Virus record (IMG/VR): IMGVR_UViG_3300037584_005881
Span: 1-25,648 of that record
Strand: one strand, 5' to 3'
Length of the DNA: 25,648 nucleotides
Source of the DNA: a virus
The translations under genes and the position numbers were made by a program. Below the pieces are notes generated by a model. That model saw only the letters and a program-made list of their open reading frames with translations, ran no database searches and was not told where the DNA came from. Below, piece by piece: positions 4,350 through 25,648 of this stretch (its first letter is position 1; every line of letters begins with the position of its first letter).

Positions 4350-5691
4350 TTTCATAGAAGCGGTTGTGGGTGTAGAGTCATTATATGACGCATTGAAGAA
4401 ACTTGACCCTAATTACCAACATGACCCTTATGCAGCAGGAAAGAACCTTGCAAATTCTTTAGTGAACACAGCAAAACAGCGTTTATCGCAAATGAATCAA
4501 AAACAACAAGAAGCAGAACAAGAAGTGGCTGAGGCTGAGGAAAAGCAAAAAGAAACCAAGCCTAAAACGCCTGAAGCCCCAAAAACTACAAGTGCTGGTA
4601 GTCCAAGAGATGACTCGGGTATAAGGGGGATGAAAAGTGATGAAAGCACGGCCACCCCCGCTGAGTCGGATGGTTCCGAGGTTAGCGCATCCCCTCAAGA
4701 AAAACTCCCAATGACCAAATCTTGGTTTATTGATAACTTTGGAATGACAAGCACAGAAATGATCGAGATTCTAACAAAAGCCGAGGAATTTGGTGCTATT
4801 GACAGCATTCAGCCTTTGATTCATATGGAGAGAAAGGCGATACTAAAACAATTTGAAGGTGTTGATTCTTCATTAACTAATTCTTTGCCACTGACCGACC
4901 TTGATTATGATTTGATAAATCAAAACCCTGAACGATATAGGATTCATCTACTACAATTAGTAAAAGCGTGGACCTCATCTGATTCTGAGGATAATAAAAT
5001 ACGGGCGGAATCAATTTGGCGAACCCGTATAAATAAGACACAAAGCCTATCCCCAAGAGAGGCAAGCATGTTATCAAAATGTGCCGATGTTATGTATGAA
5101 AGAGGCCCAATGAATGTGGGTACATTGAAATCATATGGCATTAGTGCGCCGTCAAAAGAAATATCAAAACTCATTAAGTCACACGGTTTTCTTTACAATA
5201 TCGTGAAAGCGGGGCAAGGTAAAAGAGCAGATGAAAGAAGTTTGTTCTATGATGTAGACAGGCCAACAGTATTGATAAAAAATACAGGCAGGCTAATTTC
5301 TTCTTTATTGGACAGTGGCGGCGAATTAGGCTTAGACCCGAGAGGAGTCCCACGAATCGTATTGCCGTTTGATAGTGTTAACGCACCTGATTATGCCGAT
5401 GCTATTAAGGCTGAGATGGATGTCAGCAATGTCAGGGCTGAGGGTTCTTCGTTGGTTATTGAGGGCGAGAAAGCGGTGCATAAAGCACTTGAATGGGCTT
5501 TACCCTCTCTTGGAGAAAGCAAACAAGACGGACTTTTAATGAAAAAAGCGATAGAGGGCGATATGAATGCTGGCCGGATTCTTTTGTATAATGACGCCAA
5601 TCCTAACCGCCAAGTCGAGTTAATGAAAGAATGGGGCTGGTCTGTCGACAATTTTGCACAAGTATTACAAGGCGTGATGAAGAATGGCTAA
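4342..5691 (+). CDS. Hypothetical protein with winged-helix-like segment, between terminase and portal (449 aa)
   Basis: Not recognised as a known family. Residues ~1-55 are folded, ~45-75 form a Gln/Glu/Lys-rich coiled-coil-like helix, and ~75-120 are Pro/Ser/Thr-rich and probably disordered. A helical region follows. Residues ~237-300 read like a winged helix: helices, then GPMNVGTLKSYGISAPSKEI, then a hydrophobic strand pair. The C-terminal ~100 residues look mixed alpha/beta. The ATG at 4342 sits inside the end of terminase (8-base overlap) and follows GGGGTGGG at 4331-4338. An earlier in-frame ATG at 4303 has no such site. It could be a DNA-recognition partner of terminase (small-terminase role) placed after, not before, the large subunit. 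That is inference. Confidence 0.85.
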   Translation: MSDFIEAVVGVESLYDALKKLDPNYQHDPYAAGKNLANSLVNTAKQRLSQMNQKQQEAEQEVAEAEEKQKETKPKTPEAPKTTSAGSPRDDSGIRGMKSDESTATPAESDGSEVSASPQEKLPMTKSWFIDNFGMTSTEMIEILTKAEEFGAIDSIQPLIHMERKAILKQFEGVDSSLTNSLPLTDLDYDLINQNPERYRIHLLQLVKAWTSSDSEDNKIRAESIWRTRINKTQSLSPREASMLSKCADVMYERGPMNVGTLKSYGISAPSKEISKLIKSHGFLYNIVKAGQGKRADERSLFYDVDRPTVLIKNTGRLISSLLDSGGELGLDPRGVPRIVLPFDSVNAPDYADAIKAEMDVSNVRAEGSSLVIEGEKAVHKALEWALPSLGESKQDGLLMKKAIEGDMNAGRILLYNDANPNRQVELMKEWGWSVDNFAQVLQGVMKNG

Positions 5692-7507
5692 GGAAGATGC
5701 AAAGAGGATGGAACGCTTGTTCTCCGCAATAGGCGTAGACATGGAAAGACATCAGACTCCCGTTCCGGCTATGCCTCTTTTTTCGAGTGGTATACAAGAA
5801 CCGGCTCTCCTGCAAGGGATTACAATACCAGCATTGTATGCAGCAGCGTATGAATGTGTTGTATTGAGGTCAATACTAAATCACTTGAGCGTAGAAGCAT
5901 TCCGTAAAGGATGGGGTTGGAAGGCTAACTTTGTAGTTAAATGCAGGGAATGTGATGAAGAATATCAGCAAGAGGTAGCAACTTGTATGAAATGTGGTGG
6001 CGAAGTAAGAAAAGCCGATAAACAACAAATAGAATATGCAAATACAGTGTTCAATAATAATAACAGGATGACTCAAAACTTTATTGAAGTCCTTAGAGAA
6101 ATAGAGATGGACTTAAACATTGTAGATGATGCGTATATTATTTTGACAAAAGAATACTTTATTGACCCGTCTTCAAAGTCTGCCAAGTTTTACAGAATAA
6201 AAGAAGTCACAAGAGCAGACCCTATTTTTATGCGTATTGTAGCAGATAAGCGTGGTATAAGAGGGGGCAAGCAATATACCAGTATTGTTGACCGTTCATT
6301 TAGAACATCCAAATCTACAGATAAGTGCCCTAAGACTGGCATGGATGTAGTGCCAATACATTACATGAATCTTGCTGGCGTCGGCAATGGGCAGGTATAT
6401 ACTGACGATGAGGTCATACATATCAGTAAGTGGTCTCCGTCTAAACTTTACGGTAGAAGTCCTGTTGCAACAATGTGGAGGCAGGTCAATACACTCATTG
6501 CTATGGATAATTATGTTTATTCTGCATACCAAAAGAGGAGAATGCCAAGAGGAGTAATGGTGATCAAATCTTCTAACTTAGAAACGGTAGAAAGGACTGC
6601 AAGAAATATACAGGAACATCTTGAAAGAGACCCAAATTACATACCGACTGTTGGTGTTGAAACTGAGTCGGGTAGAGGCGGTCTTGAGTATGTTCGTATG
6701 ATGGACACATTGGAAGAATTACAATATATCCCAATAAAAGATGATATTCGTCAAAGGATTGCTGCTTTCTTTGGTGTGTCAAATGTATTTATGAACGATG
6801 TAACCGGAGGCGGATTAAACAACGAAGGTATGCAGATTGTTGTAAGTAATCGTTCTGTAGCCTATGCTCAGTCTATTTACAATAATGTGCTATTCCCCGC
6901 ACTGGCCGAGGCCTTTTCAATAACAGAATGGCATCTCAAACTAAGTCCTCATGAAGAGGAAGATGAAATCATGAACATGCGTAGAGACGAAATGGCTATT
7001 AGAAACATGATTCAAATGAAACAGGCTGGATTTGAAGCGACCTTGCGAGACGGTATTGATGACACAATCTTGCACTTCGATTACAAACAACCCGACCCTG
7101 CTGAATTGGCAGCGGCTCAACAGGCTGCTGCGGAGGCTGCTCAAGCACAACAGGCTCAACAAGGAGGGGCTCAACAAGGAGGGGCTCAACCTGTTCAAAA
7201 AGGCGTCATATTAGAAAAAAGGTCACAGTTGGACCCAAATAGAGGTGGTAGTTTGCCTGTTCCTTCATCCGTCGCAGTGAATGATGGTAAAACAGACATC
7301 CCTGTCTTACGCACTGTTGGCGAGGGTCAGCACGGTTCAAGAAACAGTGAAGGGAAGAGTCCAGTTAGAGTAAAAAGGCATGAGGGGGCACCTGCTGGAG
7401 CCGAATCAAAAACAGATAAGCGTCAGGACAAAAGTGTTCAAGAGTCCATGACTGATAAAAGACTTAGTGAAATGAGTAAAAGAAAAGGCCTTGGTGGGCA
7501 ATCTTGA
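5684..7507 (+). CDS. Portal protein with zinc-ribbon insertion
   Basis: The portal is the dodecameric ring at one capsid vertex through which terminase pumps DNA. HK97/SPP1-type features are visible: an N-terminal helical region, a beta-rich wing, a DDEVIHISKWSPSKLYGRSP segment typical of portals, a long stem and crown helix region, and an FFGVSNVFMND segment before the C-terminal helices. At 607 residues it is long. Two additions explain this. Residues 87-104 carry CxxC-x10-CxxC (C87, C90, C101, C104), a likely zinc ribbon. The last ~120 residues are Ala/Gln/Gly-rich and then Lys/Arg-rich, probably disordered. The ATG overlaps the preceding stop by 8 bases, with only a weak ribosome binding site. 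Confidence 0.92.
   Translation: MAKEDAKRMERLFSAIGVDMERHQTPVPAMPLFSSGIQEPALLQGITIPALYAAAYECVVLRSILNHLSVEAFRKGWGWKANFVVKCRECDEEYQQEVATCMKCGGEVRKADKQQIEYANTVFNNNNRMTQNFIEVLREIEMDLNIVDDAYIILTKEYFIDPSSKSAKFYRIKEVTRADPIFMRIVADKRGIRGGKQYTSIVDRSFRTSKSTDKCPKTGMDVVPIHYMNLAGVGNGQVYTDDEVIHISKWSPSKLYGRSPVATMWRQVNTLIAMDNYVYSAYQKRRMPRGVMVIKSSNLETVERTARNIQEHLERDPNYIPTVGVETESGRGGLEYVRMMDTLEELQYIPIKDDIRQRIAAFFGVSNVFMNDVTGGGLNNEGMQIVVSNRSVAYAQSIYNNVLFPALAEAFSITEWHLKLSPHEEEDEIMNMRRDEMAIRNMIQMKQAGFEATLRDGIDDTILHFDYKQPDPAELAAAQQAAAEAAQAQQAQQGGAQQGGAQPVQKGVILEKRSQLDPNRGGSLPVPSSVAVNDGKTDIPVLRTVGEGQHGSRNSEGKSPVRVKRHEGAPAGAESKTDKRQDKSVQESMTDKRLSEMSKRKGLGGQS
7153..7190 (+). repeat. 15-base tandem repeat in the portal C-terminal tail
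   Basis: The unit GGCTCAACAAGGAGG occurs twice exactly (7153-7167 and 7168-7182), then an 8-base partial copy follows. It encodes a repeated Ala-Gln-Gln-Gly-Gly segment in the disordered tail of the portal. Because it is in frame with the codons, copy-number change would only alter tail length. Confidence 0.9.
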
Positions 7508-14099: not shown

Positions 14100-15275
14100 A
14101 TGAGTGGAAGTAGAGGATATTTAAGAACAATTGAAGATATGGAACGCCTATATTACGGCGCAGGAGCAGGACAAAATGCGTGGGCATACAGTGGAACAGA
14201 CCTTTTGAAGGCAGATTCACCACTAATGTCCACCACCTCAGGAACATACAACGCAATTTTCGGTAGAAAGGTATGGTCACAATTGAACCAAGAATTTAAC
14301 GCCTTTTCTATACTACCAAAGAAACCATGGGAAAAGAGTGGTTGGAGAGTAGTTACCGATAAGCCTGATTCAAGCAAAGGTGGCGGACTCCCTGAGAACG
14401 CAACATTGCCTGACACAAGCAAGCCGACATTCGAGCACATTAACGATAAGCCTCGTACTGTTGCACATACATTCGATCTAACTGAGACCGCAATGTTCCT
14501 TGCTGACAAAGATGACGGACTTGGCGATGCAAGAGCAGTCATGAAAATGGAAATGGCAAAGCATCACGCTGAGACAATCAACAAAATGCTATTGAAAGAC
14601 ATTAGCCTTAGAAGCACAACATTGAATGATTTCGAGTCTATTGACAGAATCACATCATCACCATTTGTTGAAAATTCAGGATTTACCGATGTTGCAATCG
14701 GAGACCACGCTACTTACAACCTCGCAAGACCTAACACAGCACCTGTAAGCAAGTTAAATTGGTATGATGCAAATGTCGACGCTGGAGCAGCATCTGCTGA
14801 AAGAGCCTTAACCCTAAACACCATGGATAGTATGTTCAGAAGTATTTGGGAAAGAGGAGGTCAACCAAAGGTTATCCTAACTGGTTACGATACTCTTGAA
14901 AAGATGCAACAATTGTTACAGCCACAACAAAGATTCACTGAAATGAAGAAGGTTGTACCGGGTGTTAACGGTGTAAAAGGTGTTCCGGGTATGGAAGCAG
15001 GTTTCATCGTAGCAACTTACAATGGCGTTCCAATTATCCCATCTAAGGATGTTTATGACGAAGATGGAGCAGGTATCAGCAGAATGTATTTCTTAGACAC
15101 TGACTACACATATTTCTGCACCGCTAAACCAACATTGTACCATGAGAGTGGTATTGAGACTGGAGACCCATTCGGTATCAACAGGCTCGGTCAAATGGGA
15201 ATGTTCCACACAATGGGCAACCTATGGCAAATGTTCTTCGCAGCACACGGAAAGATTAGAGACATCAGTGCCTGA
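14100..15275 (+). CDS. Major capsid protein (HK97 fold)
   Basis: This is the capsid shell subunit, called from its length (391 residues), its place directly after the prohead protease, and its pattern. A helical N-terminal arm is followed by a polar, Gly/Pro-rich extended region at ~80-125 that fits the E-loop, then a long spine-like helix (~135-165). A-domain-like strands follow, including PKVILTGYDTLEKM and AGFIVATYNGVPIIPSKDV, with a closing strand set near the C-terminus. The ATG at 14100 has GGAAGTGA at 14088-14095 four bases upstream, one of the better sites in the window, consistent with high expression. I rely on layout and pattern, not on a search. Confidence 0.9.
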   Translation: MSGSRGYLRTIEDMERLYYGAGAGQNAWAYSGTDLLKADSPLMSTTSGTYNAIFGRKVWSQLNQEFNAFSILPKKPWEKSGWRVVTDKPDSSKGGGLPENATLPDTSKPTFEHINDKPRTVAHTFDLTETAMFLADKDDGLGDARAVMKMEMAKHHAETINKMLLKDISLRSTTLNDFESIDRITSSPFVENSGFTDVAIGDHATYNLARPNTAPVSKLNWYDANVDAGAASAERALTLNTMDSMFRSIWERGGQPKVILTGYDTLEKMQQLLQPQQRFTEMKKVVPGVNGVKGVPGMEAGFIVATYNGVPIIPSKDVYDEDGAGISRMYFLDTDYTYFCTAKPTLYHESGIETGDPFGINRLGQMGMFHTMGNLWQMFFAAHGKIRDISA

Positions 15276-17167: not shown

Positions 17168-17181
17168 GGAGGGAGCCTCCT
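17167..17181 (+). promoter_or_regulatory. Hairpin hiding the ribosome binding site and TTG start of the zinc-ribbon gene
   Basis: AGGAGG at 17167-17172 pairs exactly with CCTCCT at 17176-17181 around a 3-base loop; a G-T pair can extend it. The 5' arm is the Shine-Dalgarno sequence, the 3' arm reaches the first base of the TTG start codon, and the upstream stop ends at 17167. Access to the start would need the upstream ribosome to open the stem. The pairing is seen; the control is inferred. Confidence 0.6.
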
Positions 17182-17522
17182 TGGCTAAATTGTCTCTTGA
17201 CACCGTTAATTTGGATGAAGCGTTTGAAATTGAGAAACGCCGTAAATCTCGTATGTTAGAGATTGCAAATACGCACAATTCATCGGTTCATGAGTCAATA
17301 GCACCATTCAGTAAAGCATGGATGGACCAAAACTCAACCGATATTCGTATGAAAATTAAAGGAAATAGTAGAATGGATATTCAAAACATTGGTTCAGGAA
17401 CAAGATGCCTAGATTGTGGAATGTTGCATTTTTGCTGGACGCCACAATGCGCTACTTGTGGAGGGCCAATGGATTATAACTTAGGGAGCCACCACTCTAA
17501 GAAAGCAAGACAGGTGGCATAA
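17181..17522 (+). CDS. Small zinc-ribbon protein (113 aa)
   Basis: The N-terminal ~65 residues are helical and charged. Residues 76-93 hold CxxC and CxxC pairs (C76, C79, C90, C93, with an extra C85), followed by a Gly-Pro turn, as in a zinc ribbon. The tail is basic and His-rich. The start is TTG 17181, supported by GAGGAGGGAG with a 5-base gap; no ATG gives comparable support. Zinc ribbons in virion clusters may bind DNA or stabilise small structural proteins. The exact role is unknown. Confidence 0.85.
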   Translation: MAKLSLDTVNLDEAFEIEKRRKSRMLEIANTHNSSVHESIAPFSKAWMDQNSTDIRMKIKGNSRMDIQNIGSGTRCLDCGMLHFCWTPQCATCGGPMDYNLGSHHSKKARQVA

Positions 17523-17538
17523 ATAATAGGGTGATATT

Positions 17539-18177
17539 ATGAATCCAAGAACAAACGACCCCACAAAATTGTGGTATGATATATTGAAAGCAGATATGAA
17601 AGAAAAGGACAAATACTGTCAAAAGCATTTTGGGTGTAAATATTCCGAATGCACCGAGAAACAAAAGTCTCAGTGTAATAGAGAGTGCGGAAAAGAAGTA
17701 AAAAAAGCCGACGATAAACCCCCTAAACAGATTAGAGACTCATCCCCTGATGCCGTCAATATATTAGAGATGGATAAAGAAGGCAAGAAGAAGAAGAAGA
17801 AGAAGAAAGGAGGTAGTATGCCCGACCTTTCAGGTGACGGTAAAGTTACAATGAAAGATGTTCTAATAGGTAGAGGCGTTGTTCCAAAGGGTAGCGACAC
17901 TAAGAAATCCGAACAAAAAAATGTAACTTGTAGCGACTGTAATTCCGATAGCGGAGGTTGTCCATCATGCTCGGAAAAACAAAAAGAAATTGCAAAAATG
18001 TTACTTGCGAAGGCAATGCCTTGCCCAATATGTGGTGCTGGACCGGGAGACGGTCCTATGGACTGTGCGGCAGGAGAACCCCCTGTGGCTTGCTCAAGAA
18101 GGATTAACGCAATGAGGCAAATAAGAAAGCCTCGAAGTAAAGACAACAAAATGAGAGTCCCTCGAAGAATGCGATAA
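17539..18177 (+). CDS. Cys-rich protein with poly-Lys tract and EF-hand/dockerin-like loop (212 aa)
   Basis: There are three Cys clusters: 27-50 (five Cys), 131-144 (CxxC...CxxC) and 162-185 (CxxC plus two Cys). All look like metal sites rather than disulfides. Residues 83-90 are eight lysines in a row, from AAG/AAA codons. Directly after is DLSGDGKVTMKD (96-107), which matches the calcium-binding loop of EF-hand or dockerin repeats (DxSGDGxVTxxD). The C-terminus is highly basic. The ATG at 17539 follows GGGTGAT at 17529-17535. A second start at 17818 has a better site (separate entry). The function is unknown; DNA or virion-interior binding is suggested by the charge. Confidence 0.85.
   Translation: MNPRTNDPTKLWYDILKADMKEKDKYCQKHFGCKYSECTEKQKSQCNRECGKEVKKADDKPPKQIRDSSPDAVNILEMDKEGKKKKKKKKGGSMPDLSGDGKVTMKDVLIGRGVVPKGSDTKKSEQKNVTCSDCNSDSGGCPSCSEKQKEIAKMLLAKAMPCPICGAGPGDGPMDCAAGEPPVACSRRINAMRQIRKPRSKDNKMRVPRRMR
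17806..17820 (+). promoter_or_regulatory. Internal ribosome binding site and ATG inside the poly-Lys gene
   Basis: AAAGGAGGT at 17806-17814 is followed by ATG at 17818, in frame with the host gene. This could give a 119-residue product (17818-18177) that starts at the EF-hand-like loop and lacks the first Cys cluster and the poly-Lys tract. The site is among the strongest in the window. Use of it is inferred; chance arising from Lys/Gly codons is the alternative. Confidence 0.4.
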
Positions 18178-23415: not shown

Positions 23416-23805
23416 ATGAGACTGACAGGGACTGTTAATATCAATGGCTCAATAGAGCCCGTAAATTGGACTATTGTAGGAAGTAAAGTAATTTCAGGTA
23501 GCGGACTTAGCGCAGACAATATCAGCGTAATGATACCGCTGCCGTCATACCTTGAGGAATCTGCTGAAGGAAGCCCAGTAATGAGGGAAGAAGCAGCAAG
23601 CAAAGACGCTGAAACAGGCGGGTATTGGGATAAAACAGTTACAGATTTAAGACTACTATGCAAGGAGAGAGGACTCGCAATTTCCGGCAACAAAACTGCT
23701 CTTGTAGAAAGATTACAAGAGTATGACTCATCAAGTGCCCCTGATGAAGTAGAAGAAACTACTAATGAGGTGAACACAGATGATAGAGCAGAATCCAGCG
23801 AATAA
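23416..23805 (+). CDS. Small protein with SAP domain (129 aa)
   Basis: The first ~45 residues form a small beta unit. Residues ~73-104 form a SAP domain: TVTDLRLLCKERGLAISGNK followed by TALVERLQEY, with the typical helix, Gly turn, Lys-Thr and second helix. SAP domains usually bind DNA or act as small protein-binding modules. The last ~25 residues are acidic. Start ATG 23416 follows GGTGGAG at 23404-23410; in-frame codons further up lie inside the tail tube gene and lack a site. It overlaps the tail chaperone gene by 26 bases. Its job in the tail module is unclear. Confidence 0.85.
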   Translation: MRLTGTVNINGSIEPVNWTIVGSKVISGSGLSADNISVMIPLPSYLEESAEGSPVMREEAASKDAETGGYWDKTVTDLRLLCKERGLAISGNKTALVERLQEYDSSSAPDEVEETTNEVNTDDRAESSE

Positions 23806-24145
23806 ATTTTTATTGAGTAACAACCCTGACTCGCATGTAGTCAAAACCCCTATGGGTGATTTATTGATATATGTGAAGCAGTTATCTTGGATCGAACAAC
23901 AAGAAGCAATGACTAAATTTGTTGATTTTAAAATGGTAGACGGTGAGCCTGCTCCTCAAATTGATTTAGGAGGTTACTGGAGATATGTGTTTCAAAAGTG
24001 CGTTGTCAAAACCGAGCCTGAAATGTCAAGTAAAGATTTGCTTAACCTAAAACCCGAGGTTGGCGCAGAAATACAGAAACATCTACCCTCGCTGACCAAG
24101 ATTGTAGAACAATTTGCTGGCGGTGAAGCAAACCCTTTGGGATAA
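23780..24145 (+). CDS. Tail assembly chaperone, zero-frame product (121 aa)
   Basis: This is called a tail assembly chaperone (role of lambda gpG) from its size, its place between the tail tube and tape measure, its mostly helical acidic chain, and the frameshift site at its end. It would coat the tape measure and guide tube subunits. ATG 23780 has GAGGTGA at 23767-23773 with a 6-base gap, inside the SAP gene. The chain ends ANPLG; the codons A AAC CCT TTG GGA TAA form the slippery run. Most ribosomes would stop here and make the short form. Confidence 0.85.
   Translation: MIEQNPANKFLLSNNPDSHVVKTPMGDLLIYVKQLSWIEQQEAMTKFVDFKMVDGEPAPQIDLGGYWRYVFQKCVVKTEPEMSSKDLLNLKPEVGAEIQKHLPSLTKIVEQFAGGEANPLG
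24130..24142 (+). promoter_or_regulatory. Programmed -1 ribosomal frameshift site
   Basis: The bases AAACCCTTTGGGA, read in the chaperone frame as A AAC CCT TTG GGA, contain three overlapping perfect X XXY YYZ heptamers: AAACCCT (24130-24136), CCCTTTG (24133-24139) and TTTGGGA (24136-24142). The zero-frame stop TAA follows at 24143. The -1 frame is open from 24127 to 24486. A slip gives a chaperone fusion (lambda gpGT role) of about 235 residues. Sequence and frames are seen; slippage itself is inferred from the known conserved arrangement. Confidence 0.8.
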
Positions 24146-24156
24146 CCTATTCCGAT

Positions 24157-24486
24157 TTGAAGCAGTATATTGACTCAGACGGGATAGACAATGCGTTCAA
24201 TTCTACACAAAGTTTTATTTTAGCACATCAAACCGTTACCTTTGCATTAGGTAAGTATTTTGGTTGCGCTCCACACGCATGGGATGACATGCCTGCTGAA
24301 AGAGTCATGTTAGACTATATCTTTATGAGAGTCGCACAGCAAACTCAAGCCGAGGAAATGGAGAATATGAAGAAAAACCTATCGAGAAAGGGGGGTTTCG
24401 GTGGAAATTCTAAAGGTGGGAGACCTGTACGCACAACTAGCGATGGTGACTACTTTGACCGTGCTAATTTGAATTTGAAGGACTGA
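24157..24486 (+). CDS. Tail assembly chaperone frameshift extension (made as fusion with the upstream gene)
   Basis: This open frame is -1 relative to the chaperone gene and continues without stop from 24127. The only possible start before it is a TTG at 24157 with no useful ribosome binding site, so it is best read as the C-terminal part of a fusion made by -1 slippage at 24130-24142. After the slip the fusion reads GITYSDLKQYIDSD and onward. It has a helical core with aromatic residues (AHQTVTFALGKYFG), a Lys/Met-rich helix, and a Gly/Arg-rich tail. In the lambda model the extension recruits tail tube subunits while the shared part binds the tape measure. It ends 6 bases before the tape measure ATG. 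Confidence 0.82.
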   Translation: MKQYIDSDGIDNAFNSTQSFILAHQTVTFALGKYFGCAPHAWDDMPAERVMLDYIFMRVAQQTQAEEMENMKKNLSRKGGFGGNSKGGRPVRTTSDGDYFDRANLNLKD

Positions 24487-24492
24487 ATCTAA

Positions 24493-25648
24493 ATGGTAAA
24501 TGCAGCGGAAGCAACATCTGAAATCGCAAAGGCAAGTATTACGCTTGGCGGTTTTTCTAAGAATGTCCAGTCCGCAGCACTTTATACTAAAATGCTAAAT
24601 GCTGCACTTGGTCCTTTTTACAATACTTGGGTTAGTTTGAAGCAAGGCATAGGGACTACAAAAGAAGTGTTAGAGGATATAACTAATGTATTTACATCTT
24701 CCAATGAGGCCTTGGAGCCATTGGCAGATACAGTGTCTTTAGTCGACAAAGGGTTTTCCGGTATATTCTCAGCCATTGCGATGGGTATCGGCCTGTTATT
24801 GGCGTTAGGGCTTGGAGTAGTGATGCTCGGGGGCAATATGGGGGAATTAGGTGACTATCTCCCCGGAGTCGGGGATGGCCTCACCAACATATTCAGCGGA
24901 CTAAAGGACATTGGTGCGTCTATCATGGAGTTAGTGGGCATTATTTTGTCAATAGACTTCAGCCCAATCATCGAACCCCTCACTATCTTTGCTGGAGCGA
25001 TAATAATCTATTTAGTAGAAATCGCTCAAACATGGGTTGCGATTACTGCAACAATCATAGAACAGGTTGTAAAGGTGTATTCGCATTTGGCGGAGACAGG
25101 CGCACTACAGGCTCTCATTGATGCCATAGGTGGCGTGATGGATGCCTTGATATTCGCATTTGGTTTTATCTTCAAAGCATTAGCCGACTCAGGAGTCACC
25201 TTTGAGAGCGTGAGGAATTTCATTACTTCGTCAATTGAAAACTTCGTGGATTTCTTAATTTCAAGCGGCATTATTGATTTCATTGTAGAGGTGGCCTTAT
25301 TGATTGCTGAGGTTGCAGCCGTTGTGATCAAAGTAGTCGGCGTAATTATTGGCATCGTGATATACTTACTCGGGGTTCTTATACCCTTATTGACGCCATT
25401 ATGGTTATCTTTTAAGTTGACTATGAAGGTAGTTATTACGATTTTCACATTTTTAGCGAGGACTGTCATTGCAATAATCAGATTCATAGTAGCAATGTTT
25501 ACACTTGACTTTGACAAAATGGAAGACATAGTGTTTGGCTGGGCCGATGCGTTTATCGGTGTTTTTGAATCGTTATTTGGATTTGTTGGAACATGGGTTG
25601 ATGGCATCTTAGATTTCCTTTCACCAGTGATAGATGCAATAGAGTATG
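24493..25648 (+). CDS. Tape measure protein, 5' part (runs off the window)
   Basis: The frame is open from ATG 24493 to the window end (385 codons, incomplete). Residues ~1-85 are helical and polar. Then come strongly apolar segments at about 91-113, 146-175, 213-230, 264-300 and 312-337, separated by short amphipathic helices. This is typical of phage tape measure proteins, which sit in the tail lumen, set tail length and may enter the membrane on infection. It follows the tail chaperone pair as expected. There is only a weak AAGGA-type site upstream. The apolar load is high and begins near the N-terminus. The 3' end, and any lytic domain there, is outside the window. Confidence 0.88.
   Translation, partial: MVNAAEATSEIAKASITLGGFSKNVQSAALYTKMLNAALGPFYNTWVSLKQGIGTTKEVLEDITNVFTSSNEALEPLADTVSLVDKGFSGIFSAIAMGIGLLLALGLGVVMLGGNMGELGDYLPGVGDGLTNIFSGLKDIGASIMELVGIILSIDFSPIIEPLTIFAGAIIIYLVEIAQTWVAITATIIEQVVKVYSHLAETGALQALIDAIGGVMDALIFAFGFIFKALADSGVTFESVRNFITSSIENFVDFLISSGIIDFIVEVALLIAEVAAVVIKVVGVIIGIVIYLLGVLIPLLTPLWLSFKLTMKVVITIFTFLARTVIAIIRFIVAMFTLDFDKMEDIVFGWADAFIGVFESLFGFVGTWVDGILDFLSPVIDAIEY

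Follow-up and report, generated by a model that had tools for sequence, protein, structure and literature searches.

A candidate −1 frameshift site, C_CCU_UUG with a downstream hairpin, between the tail chaperone frames of a probable magrovirus-like virus

Chaperone frameshifting in tailed viruses and the source of the window

Phage λ encodes a short, abundant tail chaperone (gpG) and a rare −1 fusion (gpGT) before its tape measure gene (PMC5009743). Tail-chaperone −1 frameshifting has also been reported, from sequence, for the haloarchaeal viruses HVTV-1, HCTV-1, HCTV-2 and HCTV-5 (PMC5009743, PMC8211752) and for the chaperone pair of halovirus Hardycor1, an archaeal virus with the same arrangement and the heptamer G_GGA_AAT, for which the accessible portion of the source describes no hairpin (PMC7911831). 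That archaeal ribosomes shift into the −1 frame has been shown experimentally for Saccharolobus fucA1, which differs from the locus described here in being a cellular gene with an A-rich site (A_AAA_AAT), low efficiency and a two-frame arrangement in few strains only (PMC8211752). Thus, whether archaea use such shifts at all, which the original prediction for our locus implied was open, had already been addressed (PMC5009743, PMC8211752, PMC7911831). In the literature searched, subscription papers aside, we found no report of ribosomal frameshifting for magroviruses, marine group II or Poseidoniales viruses, nor of a CCCUUUG frameshift site in archaeal viruses. Frameshifting of a λ G/GT-type chaperone is already known in haloarchaeal viruses, and what appears to be new, judging from the sequences, is CCCUUUG with its hairpin.

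The locus lies in a stretch of viral DNA of 25,648 nucleotides, which we refer to as the window; all features below are on its plus strand. It shares with λ a layout in which a short chaperone and a predicted −1 fusion precede the tape measure gene, but λ has a bacterial host and no sequence homology with the window's G protein was found. The shift site of λ is G_GGA_AAG. We inspected the sites of HVTV-1, HCTV-1 and HCTV-5 (Druskaviridae) and found G_GGA_AAG or G_GGA_AAC close to where G ends, with matching gene order and annotated joined chaperones. These viruses resemble that of the window in being archaeal and tailed, in having a related capsid protein and a −1 shift near the end of G, and in placing the chaperone pair directly or shortly 5' of the tape measure gene. 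However, their stop lies about ten codons beyond the heptamer, whereas the window has C_CCU_UUG with the stop one codon on, and its G has no detectable sequence match to theirs. The window also has a hairpin at 7 nt, the comparison with these three viruses being one of heptamer and stop alone. The sites known for haloarchaeal viruses are GGGAAAN or AAAAAAC, in contrast to CCCUUUG plus hairpin in the window virus.

Consistent with the original prediction of an archaeal virus, tblastn with the major capsid protein (14100-15275) matched archaeal viruses only, namely HVTV-1/2 and HCTV-1/5/16 (haloarchaeal Druskaviridae) and the Methanofastidiosa virus vir519. A group II chaperonin (thermosome) was present in 11 of 14 related contigs (75-108 kb) and was traced for one of them (L106), where it is closest to those of Poseidoniales MAGs. 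PolB was found in 4 of the 14; the window ends short of the replication module. A terminase search in cellular genomes returned no provirus. By its capsid protein and the thermosome of the related contigs, the source is a tailed virus of archaea, and probably a magrovirus-like one that infects marine group II (Poseidoniales). Elsewhere in the window, residues 86-105 of the portal protein (5684-7507) form a zinc-ribbon-like CxxC...CxxC (Pfam Zn_Ribbon_1, E 0.008, below the cut-off), and two small zinc-finger-like ORFs rich in cysteine pairs (17181-17522 and 17539-18177) lie between the capsid and tail genes.

The chaperone gene and the heptamer maintained at its end

G (23780-24145, zero frame, 121 aa) is assigned as a tail assembly chaperone gene by PHROG matches, predicted fold and the adjoining tape measure gene (24493-25648, truncated where the window ends; E 5e-6 to PHROG tape measure). 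The PHROG tail assembly chaperone matches were weak and occurred in 8 of 17 G homologues (best E 4e-4). An AlphaFold2 model of G, built from a 17-sequence alignment (pLDDT 79.8), was matched by Foldseek in BFVD to the 'Tail assembly chaperone' of Haloarcula hispanica tailed virus 2 (HHTV-2) with E 1.7e-6, and to other viral chaperones; no match was found to the model in the PDB, or to the G sequence among named phages. Together with its place upstream of the tape measure gene, the fold bears out the predicted chaperone function, and we put the probability that 23780-24486 is a λ G/GT-type tail chaperone pair with a −1 frameshift at about 94%. Between the large tail protein and G, 23416-23805 encodes a SAP domain (Pfam E 1e-11), unexpected beside tail genes.

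The end of G carries AAACCCTTTGGGA (24130-24142), 13 bases in which three slippery heptamers (AAACCCT, CCCTTTG and TTTGGGA) overlap, all in the X_XXY_YYZ phase of ORF 23780-24145 and followed directly by the zero-frame stop TAA (24143-24145). The −1 frame is open from the site to 24486, and a slippery heptamer therefore lies in-frame inside the overlap of two open frames, the arrangement of canonical −1 frameshifting. These features are as originally predicted. The 24 ORFs of the window (8006 codons) contain 29 in-frame heptamers, among which those at 24130-24142 are the only overlapping ones and the only ones at which the −1 frame is open for more than 31 codons (116-118 codons); CCCTTTG occurs once on the plus strand of the window. 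When codons were shuffled, with homopolymer runs included, 27% of trials produced a triple somewhere in the genes of the window, but only 0.4% placed one among a gene's last codons. Thus, it is the position of the triple that is rare, and the prediction that the triple is unusual holds for its place at the gene end and not for the triple as such.

Relatives were collected by a search with G (68 loci plus the window, and later 3 more loci) and an independent search with T, the −1 frame product (67 loci, 66 of them read, with 5 not already in the G set), giving 77 sites in total; for column counts these were grouped into 39 clusters at 90% protein identity. CCCTTTG (24133-24139 in the window, read as C_CCU_UUG) is present at 76 of the 77 sites, the exception (L170) having CCCTTTA, and at 66/66 of the sites read in the T-side search alone. 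Counted by cluster, CCCTTTG occurs in 38/39, TTTGGG in 16/39, AAACCCT in 4/39 and all three in 2/39. A functional role for the triple, in which any of three successive codon pairs could slip and so give the window virus a higher shift rate, would draw on the in-phase run of three and its presence in those two clusters, but it is improbable given how seldom the outer heptamers are retained beside CCCTTTG, and the codons that flank the heptamer fit amino-acid and −1 coding needs. Conservation at third codon positions, suggested as a check, is seen for CCCTTTG in all but one case, while most relatives carry changes that disrupt AAACCCT and TTTGGGA. By this comparison the maintained site is the middle heptamer, C_CCU_UUG, and the outer two appear incidental.

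The constraint on the middle heptamer goes beyond the protein. A C stands directly ahead of CCT in 39/39 clusters, whereas the next best variable codon column holds a single third-position base in 68%, and this C is supplied by eight codons (AGC, GAC, AAC, GGC, GCC, TCC, ACC and CGC) that encode seven amino acids. Since C is kept despite this variety of amino acids, the constraint acts on the RNA. CCT is the same in 741/741 cluster pairs against an expected 31%, and TTG in 95% against 19%, UUG differing once in the 39 clusters; the heptamer codons show the strongest synonymous constraint, or excess of identity, in the G gene. The corresponding products of codon-usage probabilities, approximately 1e-20 for C and 1e-19 for CCT, ignore shared ancestry and are to be read only as far beyond chance. 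In two relatives (L085 and L114) the upstream stop in the −1 frame abuts CCC, and entry to the −1 frame must therefore be at the CCCTTTG heptamer. The zero-frame stop lies exactly one codon past UUG in all relatives read; this fixed position may be stimulatory, or it may simply follow from the −1 Gly-Ile/Leu/Val that is conserved there.

The −1 frame and the downstream hairpin

The T domain (24139-24486) is predicted to be made only as a G-T fusion of 235 aa. Across the T region the −1 frame is open in all complete relatives, the other two frames contain stops, dN/dS is approximately 0.10 (12 usable pairs), and the motifs PPHxWDDxPxxRV and RTTSD are conserved. In 37/38 the −1 Gly codon immediately after the shift is retained, whereas the residue read there in the zero frame varies, showing that coding switches frame at the heptamer. 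Heptamer conservation and this switch together support a shift in the predicted −1 direction.

Another way to view T is as a gene in its own right, with ribosomes re-initiating after the end of G or using a start that belongs to T. The first TTG of its frame (24157), which in the window and in several relatives follows the zero-frame stop at 14 nt, would be the place for it. In the window, no ATG occurs in the T frame until offset +146 relative to the stop. There is no conserved T start codon across the relatives: the first possible starts range from −1 to +329 and differ in codon, with none until +329 in one relative (L134). TTG 24157 also lacks a Shine-Dalgarno sequence, with anti-Shine-Dalgarno pairing of −3.6 kcal/mol near the background of −3.0 against a gene-start mean of −6.9, so that the second frame has no credible start, as had been noted from the window by itself. 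The conserved T residues begin upstream of this TTG, and an independent T would leave the invariant C_CCU_UUG unexplained. We consider a separate T highly improbable. Downstream of T, four relatives (L109, L112, L114 and L118) have no visible ATG at the expected tape measure start.

Least credible of all is an apparent frame change from transcriptional slippage or from sequencing or assembly indels, for although assembly frame disruptions near short runs are common, the runs here are just three bases long and the same arrangement recurs at 77 sites on many independent contigs with intact flanking coding.

Folding of the downstream bases, suggested as a check with the original prediction, gave a stem-loop at 24147-24187. 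Its 5' arm, CUAUUCCG (24147-24154), begins 7 nt past the heptamer and pairs with the 3' arm, CGGGAUAG (24180-24187); folding also gives an inner stem (24156-24160 with 24175-24179) and an apical loop, together spanning 24156-24179. The spacing fits the 5-9 nt of −1 frameshift stimulators (PMC8211752). In the window the outer stem has a z of −3.06 against dinucleotide shuffles. A second null, which keeps the T protein and codon usage, was applied to the 39 clusters and gave a Stouffer z of −7.6 over 65 nt. Over the 51 nt that begin at the stop, the mean z was −1.67 and the Stouffer z −10.4, with 21/39 clusters below −2. Stouffer sums take the clusters as independent, and the better guide is the contrast with fifteen other stretches up- and downstream, where the Stouffer z ranged from 1.1 to −3.5 against the −10.4 of this 51-nt segment. 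Structure also varies by clade, with a mean z of −2.1 in the window's clade and −0.5 in one sub-clade of 11 clusters.

Pair counts for both arms include compensatory types (e.g. UA/AU, CG/UA and UA/CG), with pairing that itself exceeds column shuffles and is worse in slid registers, but the number of compensatory pairs is not above column shuffles. RNAalifold over 38 mixed clades gave no consensus structure, since the 3' arm is displaced by one codon from clade to clade; an alignment confined to one sub-clade yielded a 7-bp stem. These results suggest that the stem-loop at 24147-24187 is a candidate stimulatory structure, with stability beyond that due to protein coding and local to that place. 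As an upstream stimulator we considered the Shine-Dalgarno-like GGCGGTGA and rejected it: its pairing is strong but explained by Gly-Gly-Glu codons (mean z −0.19), and is missing in some relatives.

Proposed mechanism and meaning

We propose that most ribosomes would read G to the stop TAA at 24143, and that in a minority the tRNA-Pro on CCU and the tRNA-Leu on UUG would slip back by one base to CCC and UUU, aided by the stem-loop, which begins 7 nt further on, where the mRNA enters the ribosome. The slipped ribosomes would go on as GGG-AUA-ACC into a G-T fusion with the junction ...GEANPL|GITYSDLKQ..., giving the 235-aa G-T fusion beside the 121-aa G. By analogy with λ, both G and the fusion would keep hold of the tape measure protein during polymerisation of the tail tube. 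Comparison is what identifies the site with its −1 frame and hairpin, the constraint at the RNA level, the fold as that of a chaperone and the affiliation of the virus with archaea; we infer the slippage event itself, and tandem over single-tRNA slippage, from the sequences, while the proposed role in tail assembly follows from λ.

A point against this course is that, in the systems known, UUG serves less well than UUA or AAG as the second codon, as tRNA-Leu(CAA) on UUU makes a wobble-base mispair. Tentatively, and with the odds somewhat against it, the site may belong to a distinct −1 class in archaea, in which a tandem tRNA-Pro/tRNA-Leu slip on an invariant C_CCU_UUG, a hairpin spaced 7 nt away and a required stop one codon on would be tuned to Poseidoniales ribosomes and kept lineage-wide.

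Experimental evidence on archaeal frameshift signals is almost limited to the one Saccharolobus gene. With the locus described here, tail-chaperone frameshifting would reach the viruses of a group of marine archaea that is abundant but uncultured. The sequence clusters, approximately 40 in number, narrow the site to a single heptamer and may serve as a natural data set on the tRNA pairs and RNA hairpins to which archaeal ribosomes respond. For annotation, the motif nnC CCT TTG Gnn stop would find, in magrovirus-like viruses, a product that ordinary gene calling would miss.
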